Positions 2,301 through 20,559 of a stretch of 22,181 nucleotides of DNA are shown in pieces. The DNA comes from a virus. The DNA lies in IMG/VR virus record IMGVR_UViG_3300036792_000069, positions 1 to 22,181 of that record; one strand, 5' to 3'. The translations under genes were made by a program, and so were the position numbers. Under the pieces are notes generated by a model. It saw only the letters and a program-made list of their open reading frames with translations, had not been told where the DNA came from and searched no databases. Each line of letters begins with the position of its first letter. Positions within the stretch are counted from its first letter, which is position 1.

Positions 2301-3094
2301 GTAACGGTGACCAGTCCCGCAAGATTGGCGATATCGACTGCGCCGGCGGTATCGATGGTCCCAAGCTGAGCGGCCGGCTTGCCGCCCTGGCTGCCGAGGT
2401 GGGTATCGCCGACCGTGTTGATGATGCCCGCAGTGACGGTGACAGCACCACCATTCGCGTTGACAGCGATGTCGCCGCTCGTTGAAGTGATGGTAATGTC
2501 ACCCTTGGCGGTTTGGGTGATCGTGTTGTTGGTCGACGTGATCGTGATATTGCCTTTGCCGTCGTGAACGGTGGTTGCACCATTGCCGTCAGTCCAGGAG
2601 ATCGAGCCGTCTTTCAGGAACTTGATCTGCTGACCGTCGCCACCTTGGCCACCATCTCCAGAATCCGGCGTCGGTCCGCCACTCTTCTGGAATTTGGTGT
2701 AGAAGATCATCTCGCCGGGCTCGGCCTTCGGCGGATGGTCGGTATCGGAGTGAACGCGCTGGACGACCTTGCCGCTTTCGAAGTCGCCTTCATGGAAGCG
2801 AACGATGACCTGGTCGCCCTGGTTATCCTTCATCGGGCCGGCTTGACCGCCCTGCCCCTTTGAATTGACACCGCCCTTGCCGGGTTGCAGGCCGATGACG
2901 ATGCCGTAGGTCTCGCCGATGTGGCCGGTCTCAATCGGCAGCCAACCGGTCTCCTGCCCGCCGGGCTGGATCGCGACCTTGGCGAGATACTTGTCGGGAT
3001 CGTAGCTCGTGACGATGCCGTGGCGCTCGGTGTGCTTTGCCGCCCACCAGCGCTCCAGAATGCTGAGGATGTGATCCTCGAAGTCGTCACTCAT
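2297..3094 (-). CDS. Baseplate spike (central puncturing) protein, Mu gp45 / P2 gpV type, 265 aa
   Basis: The start is the ATG at 3094, which overlaps the stop of the hub gene as ATGA; a much longer upstream reading would run through that gene. The protein has the layout of phage tail spikes. Residues 24-115 form an OB-fold-like part (HGIVTSYDPDKYLAKVAIQP, ending ESGKVVQRVHS). A Gly-rich flexible insertion follows at about 137-155 (GGQGGDGQQ). Residues 160-225 form a short-period beta repeat (NITITSTNN, DITITSTSGDIAVNANG), typical of the trimeric beta-helix that pierces the outer membrane. No PAAR-like tip gene is seen nearby; the tip may be the last 40 residues (GDTHLGSQGGK). Neighbours are the hub upstream and the gp25-like region downstream, as in Mu. 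Confidence 0.87.
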   Translation of the reverse strand: MSDDFEDHILSILERWWAAKHTERHGIVTSYDPDKYLAKVAIQPGGQETGWLPIETGHIGETYGIVIGLQPGKGGVNSKGQGGQAGPMKDNQGDQVIVRFHEGDFESGKVVQRVHSDTDHPPKAEPGEMIFYTKFQKSGGPTPDSGDGGQGGDGQQIKFLKDGSISWTDGNGATTVHDGKGNITITSTNNTITQTAKGDITITSTSGDIAVNANGGAVTVTAGIINTVGDTHLGSQGGKPAAQLGTIDTAGAVDIANLAGLVTVT

Positions 3095-5099: not shown

Positions 5100-6878
5100 T
5101 CAGATGTCGTCCGAATGGTCACTGCCGGCGGACCAGCGCGACGCGTCGTTGCCGTCCGGCGAGCCGGTCGGATAGTCATAGAGCTGGGCGAGCTGATCGG
5201 AAATGGCTTGCGCCAGCGTTCGACCATCCACATTGAGATTGAGCGAGATCGGCTGCGCCCGCATCGGCCGCTCACCGGGATGGAAGGCCATCGGAGCGGC
5301 ACTGCCGTTGAACTCGGGATTGCCGAGGTCTTTGAAGGCCTTGCCGATGTTACCGAAGATGCCCTTCACCTTGTCATAGAGGCTCGCGATCTCGCCAACG
5401 AAAGCGGCAATCGCGTTCTTTATGCCATCGAACATACTGACGATGCTGTGCCAGTTCAGCGCGATCAGTGCACCAAGAGCCGCCACAACCCCGGCGATCA
5501 ATCCTCCAGCACCAACCAGCGGAGCAAGACCAACGACAATCGCCGCGGCGCCGAGAGCGGTGAGGCCTACGGCAAGAGCGGCGATGGACTTCATGACCTC
5601 GGAGACAGCTTGCGGATGCGCGTTTGCGAACGAGGTCGCCGTGTTGAGCGCGGACGTGATGCCCTGCAGGATCTTGACGAAGTTTTCTCCGTTCGCACCG
5701 CCGATGGCAACCATGAGGTTATGCCATGCGGAATGCATCGCGGTCAGATTGGCGTTGACGTTCTGGGAGAAACCCTTCAGGCCCTGATCGACGGTGGCGC
5801 CCTGTTCCAGGCCCTTGGTGTCCCGGTCGATCTGTTGACGCGCCAACATCATGTCGGACACGAAACGCTGCGTGGTCTGACGGCCAAGAATGCGCGACAG
5901 CGCAATCATCTGCCCGTCTTTGTCGTTGATGCCCTTGGCCTCAAGCGCCTTCATCACCGTATCGGCGAACTTGATCGGGTCGTCCTTGACCAGAGCAGTC
6001 ATCCGCTTCGCGCCGGCATCCGTCATGATGACGCGGCCGTGGTCGCTGGTCCATTCGTCGGGATGGAGCAGACCGTACTGCTGCAGCGCTTCGGCGTTGC
6101 GCTTGAACATCGTGCCGGTCATCTGCTGTCGCAAGGACAGCAACGACGTGCCGGCGCGGGCGCCTCCCATCATCTGGGACATGATCATCATGTGCTCGTA
6201 TCCCTCTTTCGAGAGACCTCGCAGCGCGATGCCGCCGCCTTGCTGGCCGAGCTGCATCAGCGTTTGGGCGTTCACCTGACCGTGGCTCGAGGCCTCGGCG
6301 ATGGCGGCCATATCGAACCACTCTTTGACCTTCTCGGGGTCAATTTTGCCTTTATCGTCGGTCAGGCGACCGGCCAATTCGCCGGCGCGCATCAAGGTGT
6401 TGATGCTCTGCTCGGGATGGCTGTCGGGATGGCGCAGCTGCATGAGACGCGCGTATCGGGACGCGTATGGCAGCAGCTCCTGCGCCTCCTTCGGGTCCTG
6501 GATCACGCCATAGATGCCACCGTACATTCCGGTGATATCCTCGACCTTCATGCCGAGTTGCTGGCCGAGCTGGTAGGACTGTTTCTGGATGGCGCCGCTC
6601 TGGACCAAGGAGGCAACCTTGGGATTGAGCTGCGAGACCTTGGTCAGCGCATCCTGGAAATCTGCCGCCTTCTCGGCGAGTTCCTTCATGACGCCGAGCA
6701 TCATCGTGCCGCCGAGGACGGCCGCGGCACCCAGGATCGCGGGTTTCCAGCCCTGGAACCCCTTTTGGATCTCGCCGATGTTCCCCCTGAGACCCAGCAA
6801 GTCCTTGGTGATGACGGCCAGCGCGGACGAAACGCCGTTCGTCAAGACGAGGCTGACACCTACCTTGTAAACGTCCAC
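5100..6878 (-). CDS. Tail tape measure protein, 592 aa
   Basis: A GTG at 6878 is the likely start: AGGTGA lies five bases upstream and the protein begins MDVYKVGVSLVLTNGV. The tape measure fills the tail tube, sets its length and leaves ahead of the DNA. Features seen are a hydrophobic segment near residues 45-62, a long helical Gln/Met/Ala-rich body, a hydrophobic Gly/Ala block at about 428-474, and a C-terminal segment with NLNVDGRTLAQAISDQLAQL, common in Mu-like tape measures. At about 0.15 nm per residue this predicts a tail of roughly 90 nm, short for a myovirus. Unlike most phages, the gene does not directly follow the chaperone; a lysin, a gp10-like gene and an opposite-strand gene intervene. 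Confidence 0.9.
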   Translation of the reverse strand: MDVYKVGVSLVLTNGVSSALAVITKDLLGLRGNIGEIQKGFQGWKPAILGAAAVLGGTMMLGVMKELAEKAADFQDALTKVSQLNPKVASLVQSGAIQKQSYQLGQQLGMKVEDITGMYGGIYGVIQDPKEAQELLPYASRYARLMQLRHPDSHPEQSINTLMRAGELAGRLTDDKGKIDPEKVKEWFDMAAIAEASSHGQVNAQTLMQLGQQGGGIALRGLSKEGYEHMMIMSQMMGGARAGTSLLSLRQQMTGTMFKRNAEALQQYGLLHPDEWTSDHGRVIMTDAGAKRMTALVKDDPIKFADTVMKALEAKGINDKDGQMIALSRILGRQTTQRFVSDMMLARQQIDRDTKGLEQGATVDQGLKGFSQNVNANLTAMHSAWHNLMVAIGGANGENFVKILQGITSALNTATSFANAHPQAVSEVMKSIAALAVGLTALGAAAIVVGLAPLVGAGGLIAGVVAALGALIALNWHSIVSMFDGIKNAIAAFVGEIASLYDKVKGIFGNIGKAFKDLGNPEFNGSAAPMAFHPGERPMRAQPISLNLNVDGRTLAQAISDQLAQLYDYPTGSPDGNDASRWSAGSDHSDDI

Positions 6879-6934
6879 GTTTTCACCTATTGCGCTTTTT
6901 TCAGGGGTGCCCCTCGGGTCAAAGGAGACGGGTG

Positions 6935-7561
6935 ATGAGGTTGTTTTTCATCGGGCCGCGCCTTTTCGGCATTCGGCCAGGTATCAGCGTGAACCCAAGA
7001 GACCTGAAGAAGCTTGTCTCCAGCGGGACAGCCAGCAGCGCTGGCAGCATTACCGGAGGGTTCGTTTACGTCCTCAAGAACAAGTCCGGTCAGCACAAGA
7101 TCGGATCGTCGGTCGACCCCATCCAGCGCATCAACCAGCTGCAGACCGGATCGGCAGAACCTCTCGACTTCGCCTGGGTCGGTGTTTCGCCGGAAGGCGC
7201 CTACACCAGAATCGAGCGCTATGCTCACACCCTTCTCGAAGCCCAGAAGATACCAGGCGCCGGCGACGAATGGTTTGCAGTCCCGGCCTCCATCGCTATC
7301 GGTGCCGTTCATGAGGCCGCGATGCGTCTCGGCGATCCGATCCAGCAGGTGCAACCCGGCATGGTACCGCAGATACTCGCTGTGGCAGCCCAGGCAGCGC
7401 GCCTGGAAGCGCGCCCCGACGTCGGCAAGTATTGTGGAATACTCAATCCGTTGCCGCGCTACATCCGATGGCCGCTGACGGCCTTGTTCAGCCTCATCAT
7501 CGGTATCGCCGCCGCCGGCATCGTTTTCGTGATCGCGGCAATGATCCAGAGCGGAAGCTAA
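6935..7561 (+). CDS. T5orf172/MUG113-type GIY-YIG domain protein with C-terminal membrane helix, 208 aa
   Basis: This is the only plus-strand gene. ATG at 6935 is chosen because AAAGGAG lies seven bases upstream; a TTG at 6890 in the same frame has no such site. Residues 43-118 fit the T5orf172/MUG113 branch of the GIY-YIG fold: FVYVLKNKSGQHKIGSS (first motif VYVL, second KIG), an Arg at 65 in DPIQRINQLQTGS, and Glu94 in RIERYAH, followed by DEWFAV. Arg and Glu are the expected catalytic positions. Residues 179-203 form one hydrophobic helix (LTALFSLIIGIAAAGIVFVI), so the C-terminus is probably membrane-anchored. The gene lies antisense to the late operon between a gp10-like gene and the tape measure, and looks like an added moron gene. 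Function is unknown; a nuclease with a host-altering or exclusion role is inference. Confidence 0.8.
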   Translation: MRLFFIGPRLFGIRPGISVNPRDLKKLVSSGTASSAGSITGGFVYVLKNKSGQHKIGSSVDPIQRINQLQTGSAEPLDFAWVGVSPEGAYTRIERYAHTLLEAQKIPGAGDEWFAVPASIAIGAVHEAAMRLGDPIQQVQPGMVPQILAVAAQAARLEARPDVGKYCGILNPLPRYIRWPLTALFSLIIGIAAAGIVFVIAAMIQSGS

Positions 7562-8001
7562 GGGATCAGCTTCGGTGCAGTGAAGGCGGCGACCAGCCGC
7601 TCGCCGATGATCTTTTTTATCTCGGGCATCTTGCGCACCATCGTTTCCTTCAGGAAGGAGCGTGGCGGGATTTTCGAGGTACCCATCTCCTGATAGACAG
7701 CGATGTCGGAGTTGGATCCGATGCGCGCTTCGCGATGATCGCTGCAATGCTGGATCGTGTCCCGCATCTCGCCGGTCCGCAGCAACGGTTCATTCGGTTC
7801 GAAGCCGAGATACTCGCGCTGTTTCTGGGTCGACTGCGCAAGCTGCGGCCAGCCATAGTCATAGGTGCCGATGACTTCCTTGGCGCCCTTGTCGACCAGC
7901 TTGGCGACCTCTTTGAGGGCCTCGCGATTCTGGTGCTCGATCTCGACAACGAACCCGCCGAGGAGAGCGCCGAACTGGTCCAGTGTCAGCTCTCTGCTCA
8001 T
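7558..8001 (-). CDS. HK97 gp10-like tail/neck completion protein, 147 aa
   Basis: The ATG at 8001 overlaps the lysin stop as ATGA. The product resembles the HK97 gp10/virion morphogenesis group. It has an N-terminal helix pair (LDQFGALLGGFVVEIEHQNR), then LLRTGEMRDTI near residues 73-83, then IAVYQEMGTSKIPPRSFL near 100-117. The last matches the conserved 'YaryvE.GT...pPRPFL' block. A helical C-terminus follows. Such proteins act at the head-tail joint or as tail completion factors and normally sit in the neck gene cluster; here the gene lies between lysin and tape measure. Its stop shares four bases with that of the convergent plus-strand gene. Confidence 0.78.
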   Translation of the reverse strand: MSRELTLDQFGALLGGFVVEIEHQNREALKEVAKLVDKGAKEVIGTYDYGWPQLAQSTQKQREYLGFEPNEPLLRTGEMRDTIQHCSDHREARIGSNSDIAVYQEMGTSKIPPRSFLKETMVRKMPEIKKIIGERLVAAFTAPKLIP

Positions 8002-9290
8002 TTCTTTGCCGTTTCAGTATCTCCGGGCCCACCCCACTCGAAGTGACCCCAGTCCGGATTGCGCCAATCGCCGCCGGAGACCATGTTGTGCTTTGCGAGA
8101 GCGGCACGCAGCTCCGGCCCGTGTGTCTCACGCCACCGCTCGAAATCACGCGATGTGGCGTTACGACCCGACTGGTTGATGTCGATGGCATTGCCGTAGG
8201 CATGCTGAGACCAGCGATTGGTGCCGGCAATGTGCCTTCGGTTGTAACCGCCGACATCGTGGATCGGTGCGCCGGCCTTCTCCAAGTCCTCGACGAAGCC
8301 CTTGATGGCGTCGGCGCTATTCTTGTGAACCGTGAAGGTATGGCCGCCAGAGGTCTTGATCGGCACCATGGACGATGCCGGAGGCGGTTCGCCGCGGTAA
8401 TAGTTCGCGCTCGGATGCGATGATGGCTGACGAGAGGCCTGGGGCACCGCCGTCGGATTTTTATCGAACTGCGCCTGACGCCGAGCGATCTTGTTGCCCC
8501 AGTACCGTTCGAAACCGGCATGGGTCATGTTTTCCGGCGTGCGAGCTCCGGCCGGAAGATTGCCGGCGATGTTGGTCATGGCACCGCGGGTGTAGAAGCC
8601 GAGCCCCTGCTGGTGCATGAGGTACATCTCGGTATTGGTCGGATCGCGACCGAATTTCTTGTGAAAGGCGCTCTTGTTCGCCTCGAACATGCGCGCCGCC
8701 GCCATCGCATTATCGTGCGCGCTGTAGGGATTGCCGCCGGCACCGAAGCGAGCCCACTCGGAATCCTTGCCACGCGTTCCGACCTGGAACAGCCCCTTGT
8801 ACTGGGTATGCTTGTTGGCGTTCGAGCTCGGGTCCATGTTGGACTCGATGGAGGCTACCGACTTCATGAACGACGGGCTGAGGCCATGGGCCTTTGCCGC
8901 CTCCTCAATCGCCTCATTGACCGTCTGGCTACCTTTCGGTGCGGGACGCTCACGGACACCGGATTTGTGCGCAGACTTACCCGCGCCCTCGCCTGCCTCG
9001 CCGGAACGCGGTTCATGGTAGGGGAAATGGTGGTGGCGCGGCCGGTGCGGCTCGCCCTCCGGTACCGTGCCGGGGTGATGGCGTGGATGGTGGTCGTGGT
9101 GCTCTTGGGGAGAAGCGCCATGTTCCTGGGGAGGAGATGGCGACATGCCGTGGGGAGGCTCGGAGGAGCGGCCCTCCGGGGTGTAGCCATTCTCGTCCGG
9201 GATGAACGGATCGATGGCGTGCTCGCCGACGATCCATTCGATAGACCCGACCGTGGACCCGTCGACTGTGATGGTGCCGACGCGCGTCAT
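7998..9290 (-). CDS. Virion-associated lysin: lytic transglycosylase-like plus M15 peptidase-like domains, 430 aa
   Basis: The protein has four parts. Residues 1-42 form a short domain that may anchor it to the virion. Residues 43-93 are a Pro/His-rich linker with 13 histidines. Residues 118-270 resemble a lytic transglycosylase: Glu149 in SVASIESNMDPSS, then KGLFQVG, then YLMHQQGLGFY, which would cut glycan strands. Residues 310-420 resemble M15 D-Ala-D-Ala peptidases, with zinc ligands His363 and Asp370 in SQHAYGNAIDI and His416 in WGHFEW. The ATG at 9290 is preceded by CGGAG and sits one base after the stop of the chaperone frameshift product. The likely role is local peptidoglycan opening during DNA entry. 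A lysis endolysin is less likely, because the gene is in the tail cluster with no holin nearby. Confidence 0.85.
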   Translation of the reverse strand: MTRVGTITVDGSTVGSIEWIVGEHAIDPFIPDENGYTPEGRSSEPPHGMSPSPPQEHGASPQEHHDHHPRHHPGTVPEGEPHRPRHHHFPYHEPRSGEAGEGAGKSAHKSGVRERPAPKGSQTVNEAIEEAAKAHGLSPSFMKSVASIESNMDPSSNANKHTQYKGLFQVGTRGKDSEWARFGAGGNPYSAHDNAMAAARMFEANKSAFHKKFGRDPTNTEMYLMHQQGLGFYTRGAMTNIAGNLPAGARTPENMTHAGFERYWGNKIARRQAQFDKNPTAVPQASRQPSSHPSANYYRGEPPPASSMVPIKTSGGHTFTVHKNSADAIKGFVEDLEKAGAPIHDVGGYNRRHIAGTNRWSQHAYGNAIDINQSGRNATSRDFERWRETHGPELRAALAKHNMVSGGDWRNPDWGHFEWGGPGDTETAKK

Positions 9291-9291
9291 C

Positions 9292-9857
9292 TCATCTCCG
9301 CTCGATGAACTTCATCCGGCCCCAGTCAAATTCCTGGTCGCCGTTCTCGAACTTGGCGAAGGTCACCGCATAGCCGAGCAGCTCCCAATCCGGCAGAGCA
9401 TGGGCAACATCGAACGGGACTCCGTTTTTCACCGCATAGCAGATCAGGCGAAAGACGGAGTCCTCTGTTAGTTTTTTGCTGCGGCCAGCGCGTCTGCGGG
9501 CGCGTCCTCGGCCTGATTGAGCCTGGTGGCGGCGGTGCCGGCGGCCGCGAGGCCTTCGACATCGAGTCGATCATAGATCGCATCGAGCTCGCCGCGCGAT
9601 CTCGGGAACGGGATCGGATCGCCATCGATCTCGCAGACCGTGGCGGCGATCATCAGCGGCAGCCGATGCGGCACTAGGATCTTCTCGCCGGTCTCGCTGA
9701 GCACTTCATCGGAGCCGGACAGGTCGGCGGTGAGGCCCGCGGCCTTGGTCTGCTCGGATGGCTTCAGGCGACGGACGCCGATCAGGCGGCCGAACTTGTC
9801 GGCCTCGCGCTCGACCTTGTTGTAACGGGCAAGCTTGATCTCGGACTCGGTAGGCAT
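9292..9857 (-). CDS. Tail assembly chaperone, minus-1 frameshift product (gpGT-like), about 188 aa
   Basis: The zero-frame product shares its first 128 codons with this one. At A AAA AAC (9477-9471) ribosomes can slip back one base and bypass the immediate TAA. The minus-1 frame then reads 59 more residues (starting LTEDSVFRLICYAVKNG) to a TGA at 9294-9292. That extension contains LPDWELLGYAVTFAKFENGD followed by EFDWGRMKF, the pattern of frameshift extensions of Mu-type chaperones (aromatic, 'FDW..M'). In the family the short form coats the tape measure and the long form recruits tube subunits. The extension has no start codon of its own, so simple gene calling would miss it. Confidence 0.88.
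9468..9857 (-). CDS. Tail assembly chaperone, zero-frame short form (gpG-like), 129 aa
   Basis: ATG at 9857 is chosen because GGAG lies five bases upstream. The 129-residue product starts MPTESEIKLARYNKVEREAD, is rich in charged residues, and contains LIGVRRLKPSEQTK near residue 26-39 and LMIAATVCEIDGDPIPFPRS near 68-87. This fits Mu gp41-like tail assembly chaperones ('...a.v..idG.p...p.s...'). It ends in an Ala-rich helix and AAAKN directly on the slippery site, with the TAA next. It lies downstream of tube and sheath, as expected. Chaperones of this type bind the tape measure and are absent from mature virions. Confidence 0.87.
   Translation of the reverse strand: MPTESEIKLARYNKVEREADKFGRLIGVRRLKPSEQTKAAGLTADLSGSDEVLSETGEKILVPHRLPLMIAATVCEIDGDPIPFPRSRGELDAIYDRLDVEGLAAAGTAATRLNQAEDAPADALAAAKN
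9471..9477 (-). promoter_or_regulatory. Programmed minus-1 ribosomal frameshift site, A AAA AAC
   Basis: On the minus strand the zero frame reads GCA AAA AAC TAA, so the heptamer A AAA AAC is in the correct phase for a minus-1 slip (X XXY YYZ). The stop follows directly. No strong downstream stem or pseudoknot is obvious by eye; the immediate stop codon may supply the pause. The re-read frame is open for 59 codons with tail chaperone signatures. Confidence 0.88.
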
Positions 9858-9907: not shown

Positions 9908-10345
9908 TCAGGCGATCTGGACCTTGCGGCTGGCGTAGCCTTCGACCTTGACGGTCACCGCCTTGTCGCGGCTGATGTTGCCGTGATCTGGCATGAACAG
10001 CACCATCTTCTGGTACTGATAGCGGCTAACGCTGCCGTCGGGGTTGGTCGTGGTCTGATTGAGGAAGCCCGGCTTCTGCACCGAACCGGCGCGGAAGTTC
10101 GCGTCGGCCTTCACCATGAAGTCCTCGAGATCGGAACCGGTTCGGGTGATCGTGAACTCGATCCGGAAGCCGTCGGGGATATAGCCGTAGCTCGGGTCAT
10201 CGTTGTACGGCATGTTCTTGATGTCGTGCTTCAGCTCGGTGATGGCGACATTCTGGATGTCACCCATATTGAGCAGCGTGCCACTCGTGCCGTCATAAAA
10301 CATGAGCGAGTAGTCGACGCCGACGTTCATTCCATTGACTGGCAT
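9908..10345 (-). CDS. Tail tube protein, contractile tail (Mu gpM / P2 FII type), 145 aa
   Basis: ATG at 10345 is preceded by GGAG ten bases upstream. The protein starts MPVNGMNVGVDYSLMFYDG and has the alternating beta pattern of tube subunits: VAITELKHDIKNMPYND near residues 33-49, RIEFTITRTGSDLEDFM near 61-77, and a final strand KAVTVKVEGYASRKVQI. Tube subunits stack as hexamers around the tape measure and share a fold with the sheath-bound type VI tube. It is encoded directly after the sheath gene, the invariant sheath-then-tube order of contractile tails. Hairpins with U-runs flank it on both sides. Family assignment rests on size, beta pattern and position. Confidence 0.87.
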   Translation of the reverse strand: MPVNGMNVGVDYSLMFYDGTSGTLLNMGDIQNVAITELKHDIKNMPYNDDPSYGYIPDGFRIEFTITRTGSDLEDFMVKADANFRAGSVQKPGFLNQTTTNPDGSVSRYQYQKMVLFMPDHGNISRDKAVTVKVEGYASRKVQIA

Positions 10346-10411: not shown

Positions 10412-12364
10412 TTAGGCGTTGACGTTGACGGCTTGCGCGAACTGCGACGGGTTCGGCTGCGTCGACTGCACGGTGACGGTGACGTTGCCGCCACCCTGGA
10501 ATTTCACCACGAAGTAGCGGACGACGTTCAGGTAGCGGACCTCCCAGTAGAGGAAGAGGTAACCGAGAGCCTGCAGGTTTGCCGGGTTGTTGTTGAGATC
10601 GCACTGGACCAGCCACGGCGTATCGATCATGCCTTGACCGTTGATGCCGGTGCCGACCTCGGGGCTCGCGAGCTGCGCCGAGAAGCCGTCGAACAGGGCC
10701 TTCGCTTGCGCGCGGGTCTGGTCGTTCGGCTGGATCGACTGCAGCTTGCCGATGAAGCTTCCCGCCGCCTTGCTTTCGGCAGCACGGATCAGGAAGTTCG
10801 TCATGCGGGTGTACTCGATACCGTTTGCGGCGGTGTTCGAGCTCGCATTGCGGCCGGTGGCAAACGAGAAGTAGTATCCGCCCGGCGACTGCACCGGAGG
10901 CAGGATGGTGTCGATGCCGCCCGTGTTGATCTGCGTCAACTCGGTGTCGGAATAGGTCTCGCCGAGCACCGAACGCTCCGTCGAGGAGATGCCCTGCAGC
11001 GGCTTGTTCAACGGGCTCTGCTGCGGCGAGAGATTGCCGCAGATGCCGATGCCGAACGCCGCCGGATTGATCAGGCGGGAGACGCCATTGTAGCTGTCAT
11101 AGAACGTCGGCCAGTCGCCGAGGATAAGCCAGAACCACGGCGAGTCGACGCCGGAGTTGATGCGGATCTGAAGCGCGTCCGCAATGGTGTCGCCGGAGGT
11201 CGTTGCGAACACCGGGAGCATGGTCTCCGACAGACCGAAGGAGACGACAGCCGCATAGTCTGCGATGGTGGAATGATCGCAGAGCGTGAAGCAGTCGCAA
11301 TTGGAGTTGCGCAGCGCATACATGCCCTTGCGCGGCACGATGTCCTGACCCATGAGGGTGGCATCGGTGACGCCGGCATCACCATCGGTGCCGCCACTCA
11401 GCGTGATCGGCGTCGACAGAACAGGCGGGGTCGTCGAGACGCCCGCGGTGGCGACAACGAACTGTGACGGACCATGGAACGGCGTGCCGTCATTGATGGC
11501 ATTGGCGAGGTTCGTCCAGAACGTCTGCCAGGTCCCGAGACCGCCGGCGAGCGTCGCACCCGACAGCGTGATGTTGGTCGAGGTCTTGGCAAGCGTCAGC
11601 GCATTGCCGGCGGTGCCGGCGTTGGCGCCGCTGGAGACGAACTGGTTGGCTGTAATCTTCAGCACCGAGCCGGACAGGCTGTAGCTGCACTTCACGAGGC
11701 CGGTGTCGGCCGATGCCAGCAAAAACGCCAGCAGGTTCGACAGCGTCACCGCGAGCGAGGAGCCGATGTTGACCTGCAGACCGGTGGCGCCGGACGCCAC
11801 GAAGGTGATCGCCGAGCCGGCAATCGTCAGCGTATCTGCCGCGGTCGGCTGACCGGCGAAGGTTGCGGTACCGCTTGCGGGCGTCGGACCTGCGATGTTG
11901 TTGAACTGCTCCGGCACGATGCCGGGGAAGGCAACAACACCCATGAAGGTATTGAGCGCAGAGCCGTTCTGCATCGAGAACTGGATCGCATTGCCGAGCG
12001 TGCCGGTGTACTTGCCGGTGAGCGTGACGCCGCCGGTCGTGCCGGATGCGGCAAGATCGGTGCCGTCGGAGACGCGGATCATGTAATAGCCGATGGCGCC
12101 ACCGACCTGCGAGGCTGCGGCGACATACGATGCGATGTCGTACTTGCGGATTTTCGGCGGACCAACCGTCAGGGCGACGTCGGCCGGCTTCGATCCGGGG
12201 ATCAGCGCATTGAGCGGACCCCAGCTGCCGACGCCGACCAGACCTTCGATGTTGGTCGGCGTGCCGAGAATGTTCGGCACAGGCAGGATGATGTCGCCAT
12301 AGACGCCAGGGACTTGCAGCGCAGCAAGGTTCTGCTGGCCATCGAGGAAGACATTACCGGTCAT
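10412..12364 (-). CDS. Tail sheath protein (Mu gpL type), 650 aa, with inserted beta domain
   Basis: ATG at 12364 follows GGAG by nine bases. The sheath contracts around the tube to drive penetration. Family features are an N-terminal [13 protein letters not shown], then [12 protein letters not shown] near residues 41-52 and AALAIQ-like spacing, plus a C-terminal core with [29 protein letters not shown] and [20 protein letters not shown]. The last part mediates subunit linking. Residues about 158-276 are an inserted Gly/Thr/Ala-rich beta domain ([20 protein letters not shown] to TLAGG) that would project outward. At 650 residues it is longer than Mu gpL (about 495), mostly owing to insertions. 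Hairpins with U-tails lie on both sides, suggesting separate high expression. Confidence 0.92.
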
Positions 12365-19913: not shown

Positions 19914-19937
19914 AAAAAGGGCGCTAGATGCGCCCTT
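19914..19937 (-). terminator. Hairpin overlapping the homing endonuclease stop, with U-run
   Basis: Minus-strand hairpin with arms 19937-19930 and 19924-19917, a perfect 8 bp stem with a 5-base loop holding the first bases of the stop codon TAG, followed by a T-run. The stop of the GIY-YIG gene lies across the loop and 3' arm, so translating ribosomes could disturb the structure. Confidence 0.75.
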
Positions 19938-20559
19938 CGCTCTTCAGGTATTTGCCGTTCGGACCCCGAGGTCGTTGGGCATGTGAAGCCCGCATCTTGG
20001 CGAGCGTTTCCGGCGGATGCGTCTTGCCTCTCATGTGAGGCGTCATCATCCGTCCGTACTCGGACTGTCTGGCTCGACGTTCTGGATCAGCCATCGCAGC
20101 CGACACCGCTGCAGATATTTTGGCTCGATGTTCTTCGGTTCGTTTTTTACCGAGAAGAGCGGCCGCGATCTTGGCGCGATGTTCCGGGCTCTTCGGTTTA
20201 CCCTTATGCGCGGCGCGCAATTTGATGCCGACAGTGATCGGCTGTGGCACACCTTCACGGGTGCCGGTCACCTTGCAGATATTATAACCAAACCGATCAT
20301 CGCTCGTTTGTAGAGCGTCGATCCAAATCTGTTCGCGAGCGAGGAGCTTGTCCTTATCGCAGTATTCGATCATGGCGAAGGAAAAGGCTCCCTCACCGTC
20401 ACGATCCCACGTCCGCTGCAACTGCGGAGAATGATGCTTTCCCCATCGCAGCATGTAACGATGCGCGACAATTCTATGACGAGCGTCGACCGAGGAGCCG
20501 ATGTATCGCTTGCCTGACTTAATATGGAGAATGCAATAGATGCCGGAGCGGGGCGCCAT
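19924..20559 (-). CDS. Free-standing GIY-YIG homing endonuclease with NUMOD3-like repeats, 211 aa
   Basis: Residues 6-83 are a GIY-YIG nuclease: SGIYCILHIKSGKRYIGSSV carries the GIY and YIG motifs, Arg27 in DARHRIVAHR is the catalytic arginine position, and Glu76 in LLAREQIWID is the metal-binding glutamate (I-TevI numbers 27 and 75). Residues 117-196 have three NUMOD3-like DNA-binding repeats: KGKPKSPEHRAKIA, GKKRTEEHRAKIS and RGKTHPPETLAKMR. It is a mobile gene lying directly after the capsid gene, typical for free-standing endonucleases, which cut phages lacking them and spread by repair. The ATG at 20559 lies inside a hairpin, and no good ribosome binding site is visible, suggesting low expression. 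Confidence 0.92.
   Translation of the reverse strand: MAPRSGIYCILHIKSGKRYIGSSVDARHRIVAHRYMLRWGKHHSPQLQRTWDRDGEGAFSFAMIEYCDKDKLLAREQIWIDALQTSDDRFGYNICKVTGTREGVPQPITVGIKLRAAHKGKPKSPEHRAKIAAALLGKKRTEEHRAKISAAVSAAMADPERRARQSEYGRMMTPHMRGKTHPPETLAKMRASHAQRPRGPNGKYLKSEGRI

Follow-up and report, generated by a model that had tools for sequence, protein, structure and literature searches.

A predicted −1 ribosomal frameshift with a covarying downstream hairpin in the tail assembly chaperone gene of a contractile-tail phage family

The window analysed here, a whole stretch of 22,181 bases from a virus record, carries its tail-module genes on the minus strand, and one of these genes raises a simple question: how would a reading frame that closes on a stop codon give rise to two proteins? 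The ORF list places the zero-frame tail assembly chaperone gene at 9468..9857 (minus strand), with 129 aa from ATG to TAA, and its 3′ end reads ...GCC GCA GCA AAA AAC TAA. A sequence-only reading of the window had proposed that a −1 frameshift is hidden at this end, and the direct sequence bears out its two central observations. The slippery heptamer A AAA AAC (9471..9477, minus strand) stands in the X XXY YYZ register directly before the zero-frame stop, GC[A AAA AAC] TAA, with the TAA at 9468..9470. The −1 frame is then open for 59 codons (LTEDSVFRLICYAVKNGVPFDVAH...FDWGRMKFIERR; 9295..9471, minus strand) up to a TGA at 9292..9294, just past which the ATG of the next gene lies at 9290. Zero-frame part and extension together make a predicted fusion of 188 aa. 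The same reading held that the extension has no start codon; this is correct for the full extension, which has none in frame upstream, and incorrect for its interior, where GTG occurs at residues 14 and 36 and ATG at residue 54.

Conservation of the junction and selection on the extension

To follow the junction across relatives, we compared 33 junction-distinct sequences that have both gene parts, with duplicates removed and the window counted. A slippery heptamer is found at the same junction in 33 of 33: A AAA AAC in 27, A AAA AAT in two, A AAA AAG in two, A AAA AAA in one and C CCA AAG in one (L015, to which L016 is identical). Such sharing at one position excludes chance, and the exceptional C CCA AAG is itself a known shifty heptamer (PMC5009743). 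Lysine is mostly encoded by AAG elsewhere in these genes (127 AAG versus 54 AAA), so the AAA kept at the junction does not reflect codon bias. The heptamer stays in place where the zero-frame stop shifts, with offsets of −2, 1, 4, 25, 37, 40, 58 and 106 nt among relatives; in 17 of the 33 sequences the stop comes 1 nt after the first −1 codon begins. An extension of 57-65 aa is nevertheless present in all 33. Because the position of the stop varies while the extension does not, both stop readthrough and a fixed accidental overlap are excluded.

The extension also evolves as a protein would. Mismatch fractions at codon positions 1, 2 and 3 of the −1 frame are 0.39, 0.32 and 0.58, a pattern that the zero-frame part, read in its own frame, repeats (0.38, 0.32 and 0.61). 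Among close pairs with measurable dS, most have an extension dN/dS of 0.06-0.22. All differences between the extensions of L051 and L052 are synonymous. The segment VPFDVA is the same in all of the first 14 sequences and varies in more distant members. The zero-frame proteins of relatives are 48-67% identical. Conservation of the extension begins at the heptamer itself (D4, F7). These sequence comparisons show that the extension is under purifying selection and that both reading frames are selected.

Two further sequence features were considered as contributors to frameshifting in these loci and set aside. In L015, a GGAGG upstream of C CCA AAG (2976-3001) could be an internal Shine-Dalgarno stimulator; as a general feature such a stimulator was rejected, the motif being found upstream in L015 and L020 and not in the window. 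Another in-phase heptamer, A AAA AAG, lies in the neck-like gene of the window (7618-7612, minus strand) and is followed by an open −1 frame of 241 codons. It was rejected as a second shift site, for it is not conserved in relatives and runs antisense to a gene at 6890-7561; on both grounds it is taken to be a chance site, and it serves as a negative control.

The downstream hairpin

What would hold a ribosome at this heptamer? A hairpin, absent from the sequence-only reading, begins 7 nt 3′ of it, after a spacer that includes the stop (9464..9470, minus strand). Its basal stem of 9 bp pairs the 5′ arm GGACTCCGT (9455..9463, minus strand) with the 3′ arm ACGGAGTCC (9417..9425, minus strand), the latter overlapping the extension codons NGVP. 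The region folds at −26.5 kcal/mol in the window, with z = −4.1, and across the 33 sequences the median fold z is −4.3, with values below −2 in 29 of them. In an alignment of 40 sequences, 91% of the cells in the stem are paired versus 80% in shuffles; none of 500 shuffles reaches the observed pairing, and controls slid along the alignment stay at or below 57%. Double changes occupy 32 cells of the stem, against 7.5 in shuffles. When changes were placed on a tree of the zero-frame protein and counted as standard pair to standard pair with both sides altered, 16 of the 20 changes inferred at the most variable pair were independent double changes of this kind. This pair joins the first base of extension codon 5 to the free wobble base of Gly17, and protein coding alone therefore does not explain the covariation. 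Higher up, the hairpin is weaker and only partly conserved, with 60% of cells paired, so our claim is limited to the basal stem. An Rfam search returned chance matches only.

One could argue that the hairpin is a functionless by-product of conserved codons, since the GD.P and NGVP codons hold its two arms. This is very improbable in view of how the stem changes. The Gly17 wobble base tracks the first base of codon 5 through CG, GC, UA and AU, even though it is free in the protein code; a Val-to-Ile replacement, accompanying G to A in the 3′ arm, goes in L037 and in L043/L047 with a change of the partner base; and in L036 and in the clade of the phage phiKX1 the arms swap G-C to C-G.

Three relatives are without the hairpin, L049 (A AAA AAA) and the pair L051/L052 (A AAA AAG), and their lack of it counts against a hairpin-assisted shift. 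L015, with the strong site C CCA AAG, retains it. The losses may represent a trade-off with the slippery site, in one or two events only. A wider idea is that the two elements together determine the shift rate, such that lineages with the weaker A AAA AAY must keep the hairpin, lineages with A AAA AAR lost it and the gpG:gpGT ratio stays constant; we regard this as tentative and, on the sequences compared, rather doubtful.

The chaperone gene, its neighbourhood and its relatives

The surrounding genes describe a contractile tail. A PHROG tail sheath gene (10412-12364) is followed by the gene assigned from position and synteny to the tail tube (9908..10345, minus strand; phrog_12993, a family of unknown function), whose product is the expected partner of the extension. 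The tape measure, the expected partner of the zero-frame part, is a 592-aa protein (5100..6878, minus strand; phrog_28 tail length tape measure, E = 1.3e-21). Between chaperone and tape measure lie a transglycosylase-like and M15 peptidase gene (7998-9290, minus strand) and a gene resembling neck or tail-completion genes. Relatives share one gene order (sheath, tube, chaperone, extension, optional cargo, neck, tape measure and baseplate genes), which recurs in dozens of IMG/VR contigs as well as in genome contigs of Bradyrhizobium and Rhodocyclaceae. The phages are an uncultivated contractile-tail family of Bradyrhizobium and related bacteria. The one or two genes that separate the chaperone from the tape measure were counted against the chaperone reading. 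The transglycosylase/M15 gene is missing from that place in several relatives, which marks the place as a variable cargo slot; in L013, L014, L044, L045, L048 and L049 the neck-like gene directly follows the extension.

Several other features of these loci were noted. A Bradyrhizobium locus (L020, 4095-6548) has a rearranged order with the tape measure before the chaperone, and Bradyrhizobium sp. Tv2a-2 (NZ_AXAI01000008.1) has two different tail-module copies on one contig (L017, L019). The window gene at 6890-7561, flanked by the neck-like gene and the tape measure, is on the opposite (plus) strand and encodes a MUG113/T5orf172 (GIY-YIG-like) protein whose C-terminus is hydrophobic. Homologues occupy the same slot in the same orientation in about ten loci (among them L003, L006, L018, L023, L030, L040, L042, L048 and L049), and the gene resembles a conserved moron. 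A GIY-YIG and NUMOD3 protein, homing-endonuclease-like, is encoded at 19924-20559 (minus strand) beside the likely capsid gene.

A tail assembly chaperone is the best reading of the zero-frame gene, given its position, the frameshift signal and the predicted fold. The structural model of the zero-frame protein (pLDDT 86.7) matched FS-gp41 of phage Mu in a Foldseek search of BFVD (E = 3.6e-3, probability 1.00), with other named tail assembly chaperones at rank 5 (E 6.6e-3) and, more weakly, at ranks 15 and 17; TM-scores were modest, and the likeness to Mu FS-gp41 would indicate remote kinship at most. The model of the extension (pLDDT 86.6) shows a small domain with three helices and two short strands. 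Foldseek against the PDB gave nothing significant for either part. The window fusion had no Pfam match at E <= 1, and its relatives shared no common Pfam family; PHROG, Pfam and PDB searches with extension and fusion yielded nothing usable and no named chaperone family, the zero-frame part having a weak match to the unnamed phrog_20383. A tblastn search with the fusion found no match among INPHARED phages and PLSDB.

The sheath protein led to two cultured relatives, the Komagataeibacter phages phiKX1 and phiKX2 (LC644975, LC644976), which were induced with mitomycin and have contractile tails by electron microscopy (PMC8566455). In phiKX1, a distant relative whose tail module is as in the window, A AAA AAC TGA is followed by GGCACCCCG pairing with CGGGGTGCC, a hairpin at the window's spacing, and the extension carries SGVPWDVA...FDW. 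Profile comparison links both phiKX1 parts to the window family (probability ~57%, E ~1e-4), and ten IMG/VR relatives of phiKX1 agree with this. The phiKX1 pair (L059; 8495-9036 of LC644975) differs from the window family in its swapped stem sequence. It is also annotated as two unrelated proteins: GenBank splits it into the hypothetical proteins PhiKX1_580 and PhiKX1_590. The second is given as 59 aa from an internal ATG, a start that is probably wrong.

How does this junction compare with known chaperone frameshifts? The motif W.LLGYAV...FDW..M had been read as a signature of Mu-type extensions, an attribution that comparison did not support. Mu gp41/FS-gp41 belongs to a contractile-tail module and has the same gene position, but the verified Mu shift is −2 and the window extension lies in the −1 frame; the Mu extension lacks the GVPFDVA and FDW motifs of the window family, and no Pfam or PHROG match makes the connection. 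The proposed profile check against the Mu chaperone extension likewise gave no link, hhalign assigning a probability of 0.3% to both the zero-frame and the extension families when compared with Mu gp41 and its extension. Judged from the aligned sequences, the motif belongs to the window's own phage family. The E/E+E′ pair of P2 is alike in arrangement, with a contractile tail, a −1 frameshift and the order sheath, tube, E and tape measure; its slippery site is T TTT TTG instead of A AAA AAC, and hhalign of the window extension against P2 E′ gave a probability of 0.1%.

Xu, Hendrix and Duda (2004) reportedly described a conserved class of chaperone frameshifts in dsDNA phages. As in the window, the lambda gene for gpG/gpGT lies between the major tail protein and the tape measure, and a −1 slip on an X XXY YYZ heptamer near its 3′ end gives a short and a long product. 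The window family differs in its heptamer A AAA AAC, in having no detectable sequence homology to named families and in the lytic enzyme and neck-like genes that precede the tape measure. It also differs in its conserved, covarying downstream hairpin; a review notes that certain tailed phages seem to shift without the help of a stimulator (PMC5009743). In the Burkholderia phages KL1 and AH2 the chaperone likewise has a predicted −1 shift and a possible stem-loop, and in KL1 one gene intervenes before the tape measure, a further likeness to the window (PMC3483164). Their sites are GGGAAAC and AAAAAAG, and their stem-loops come from single-sequence folding only.

Proposed mechanism and rival explanations

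We propose that a programmed −1 ribosomal frameshift yields two forms of the tail assembly chaperone, one short and one long, and consider this very likely. Sequence comparison documents a slippery site, a spacer, a covarying stem and two selected frames. Most ribosomes would halt at the TAA and release the 129-aa, gpG-like chaperone. A minority would be held at A AAA AAC by the hairpin 7 nt downstream, their P- and A-site tRNAs would slip back one base together, and the stop would be passed in the −1 frame to give the 188-aa, gpGT-like fusion with its 59-aa helical C-terminal domain. The slippage, the tandem movement of the tRNAs and the low ratio of fusion to short product are what we infer from these elements. 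The lambda chaperone attaches to the tape measure through gpG and to the tube protein through its T part (PMC5009743); by analogy, coating of the tape measure would here fall to the short form, and recruitment of tube subunits to the long one. The expectation of a gpG/gpGT-type pair is in this sense upheld, as a predicted −1 frameshift chaperone identified by position and a conserved hidden extension. Counted against the mechanism is the finding that A AAA AAC promotes far less frameshifting in E. coli than A AAA AAG does (PMC5009743).

Could the fusion arise without a ribosomal shift? RNA polymerase might slip on the A6 run, so that mRNAs one base out encode the fusion. Such a homopolymer is present in nearly all relatives, and RNA hairpins can stimulate polymerase slippage too (PMC5009743). 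Yet C CCA AAG in L015 is a tandem-tRNA slippery site with no homopolymer, the run is constantly kept in the X XXY YYZ register and the hairpin stands at ribosomal spacing. Six A's are, moreover, a short run for slippage by a bacterial polymerase. Transcriptional slippage is disfavoured on these sequence grounds, and we think it very unlikely. Still less credence attaches to the extension being a separate small gene, with its own start or coupled to the upstream stop, and no fusion being made. The GTG codons at residues 14 and 36 would allow this, as does the GenBank entry for phiKX1 with its internal ATG, but conservation from D4 and F7 at the heptamer lies upstream of any start codon in the window's extension, the overlap of stop and extension varies in length, and heptamer and hairpin would be left without a role. 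As for a disabled gene or a sequencing error in what was originally one ORF, A6 runs are indeed prone to indel errors; dozens of independent contigs, however, have the break, as do a RefSeq Bradyrhizobium assembly and cultured phages, and the stop positions differ among them. Comparison across relatives refutes this explanation, and we give it practically no weight.

The programmed −1 frameshift that we favour is as a mechanism a textbook phage trick, already known; the evolutionary evidence is unusually clear and the RNA stimulator unusually well supported. Stem-loops at such sites are often inferred from single sequences, and here it is covariation that supports a hairpin assisting the predicted −1 shift of a phage tail gene. 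The analysis assigns tail chaperone proteins to a phage family in which databases had left them hypothetical, shows how gene callers overlook the chaperone gene or divide it in two, and, through the mitomycin-inducible, non-pathogenic relative phiKX1, makes the predicted frameshift testable.
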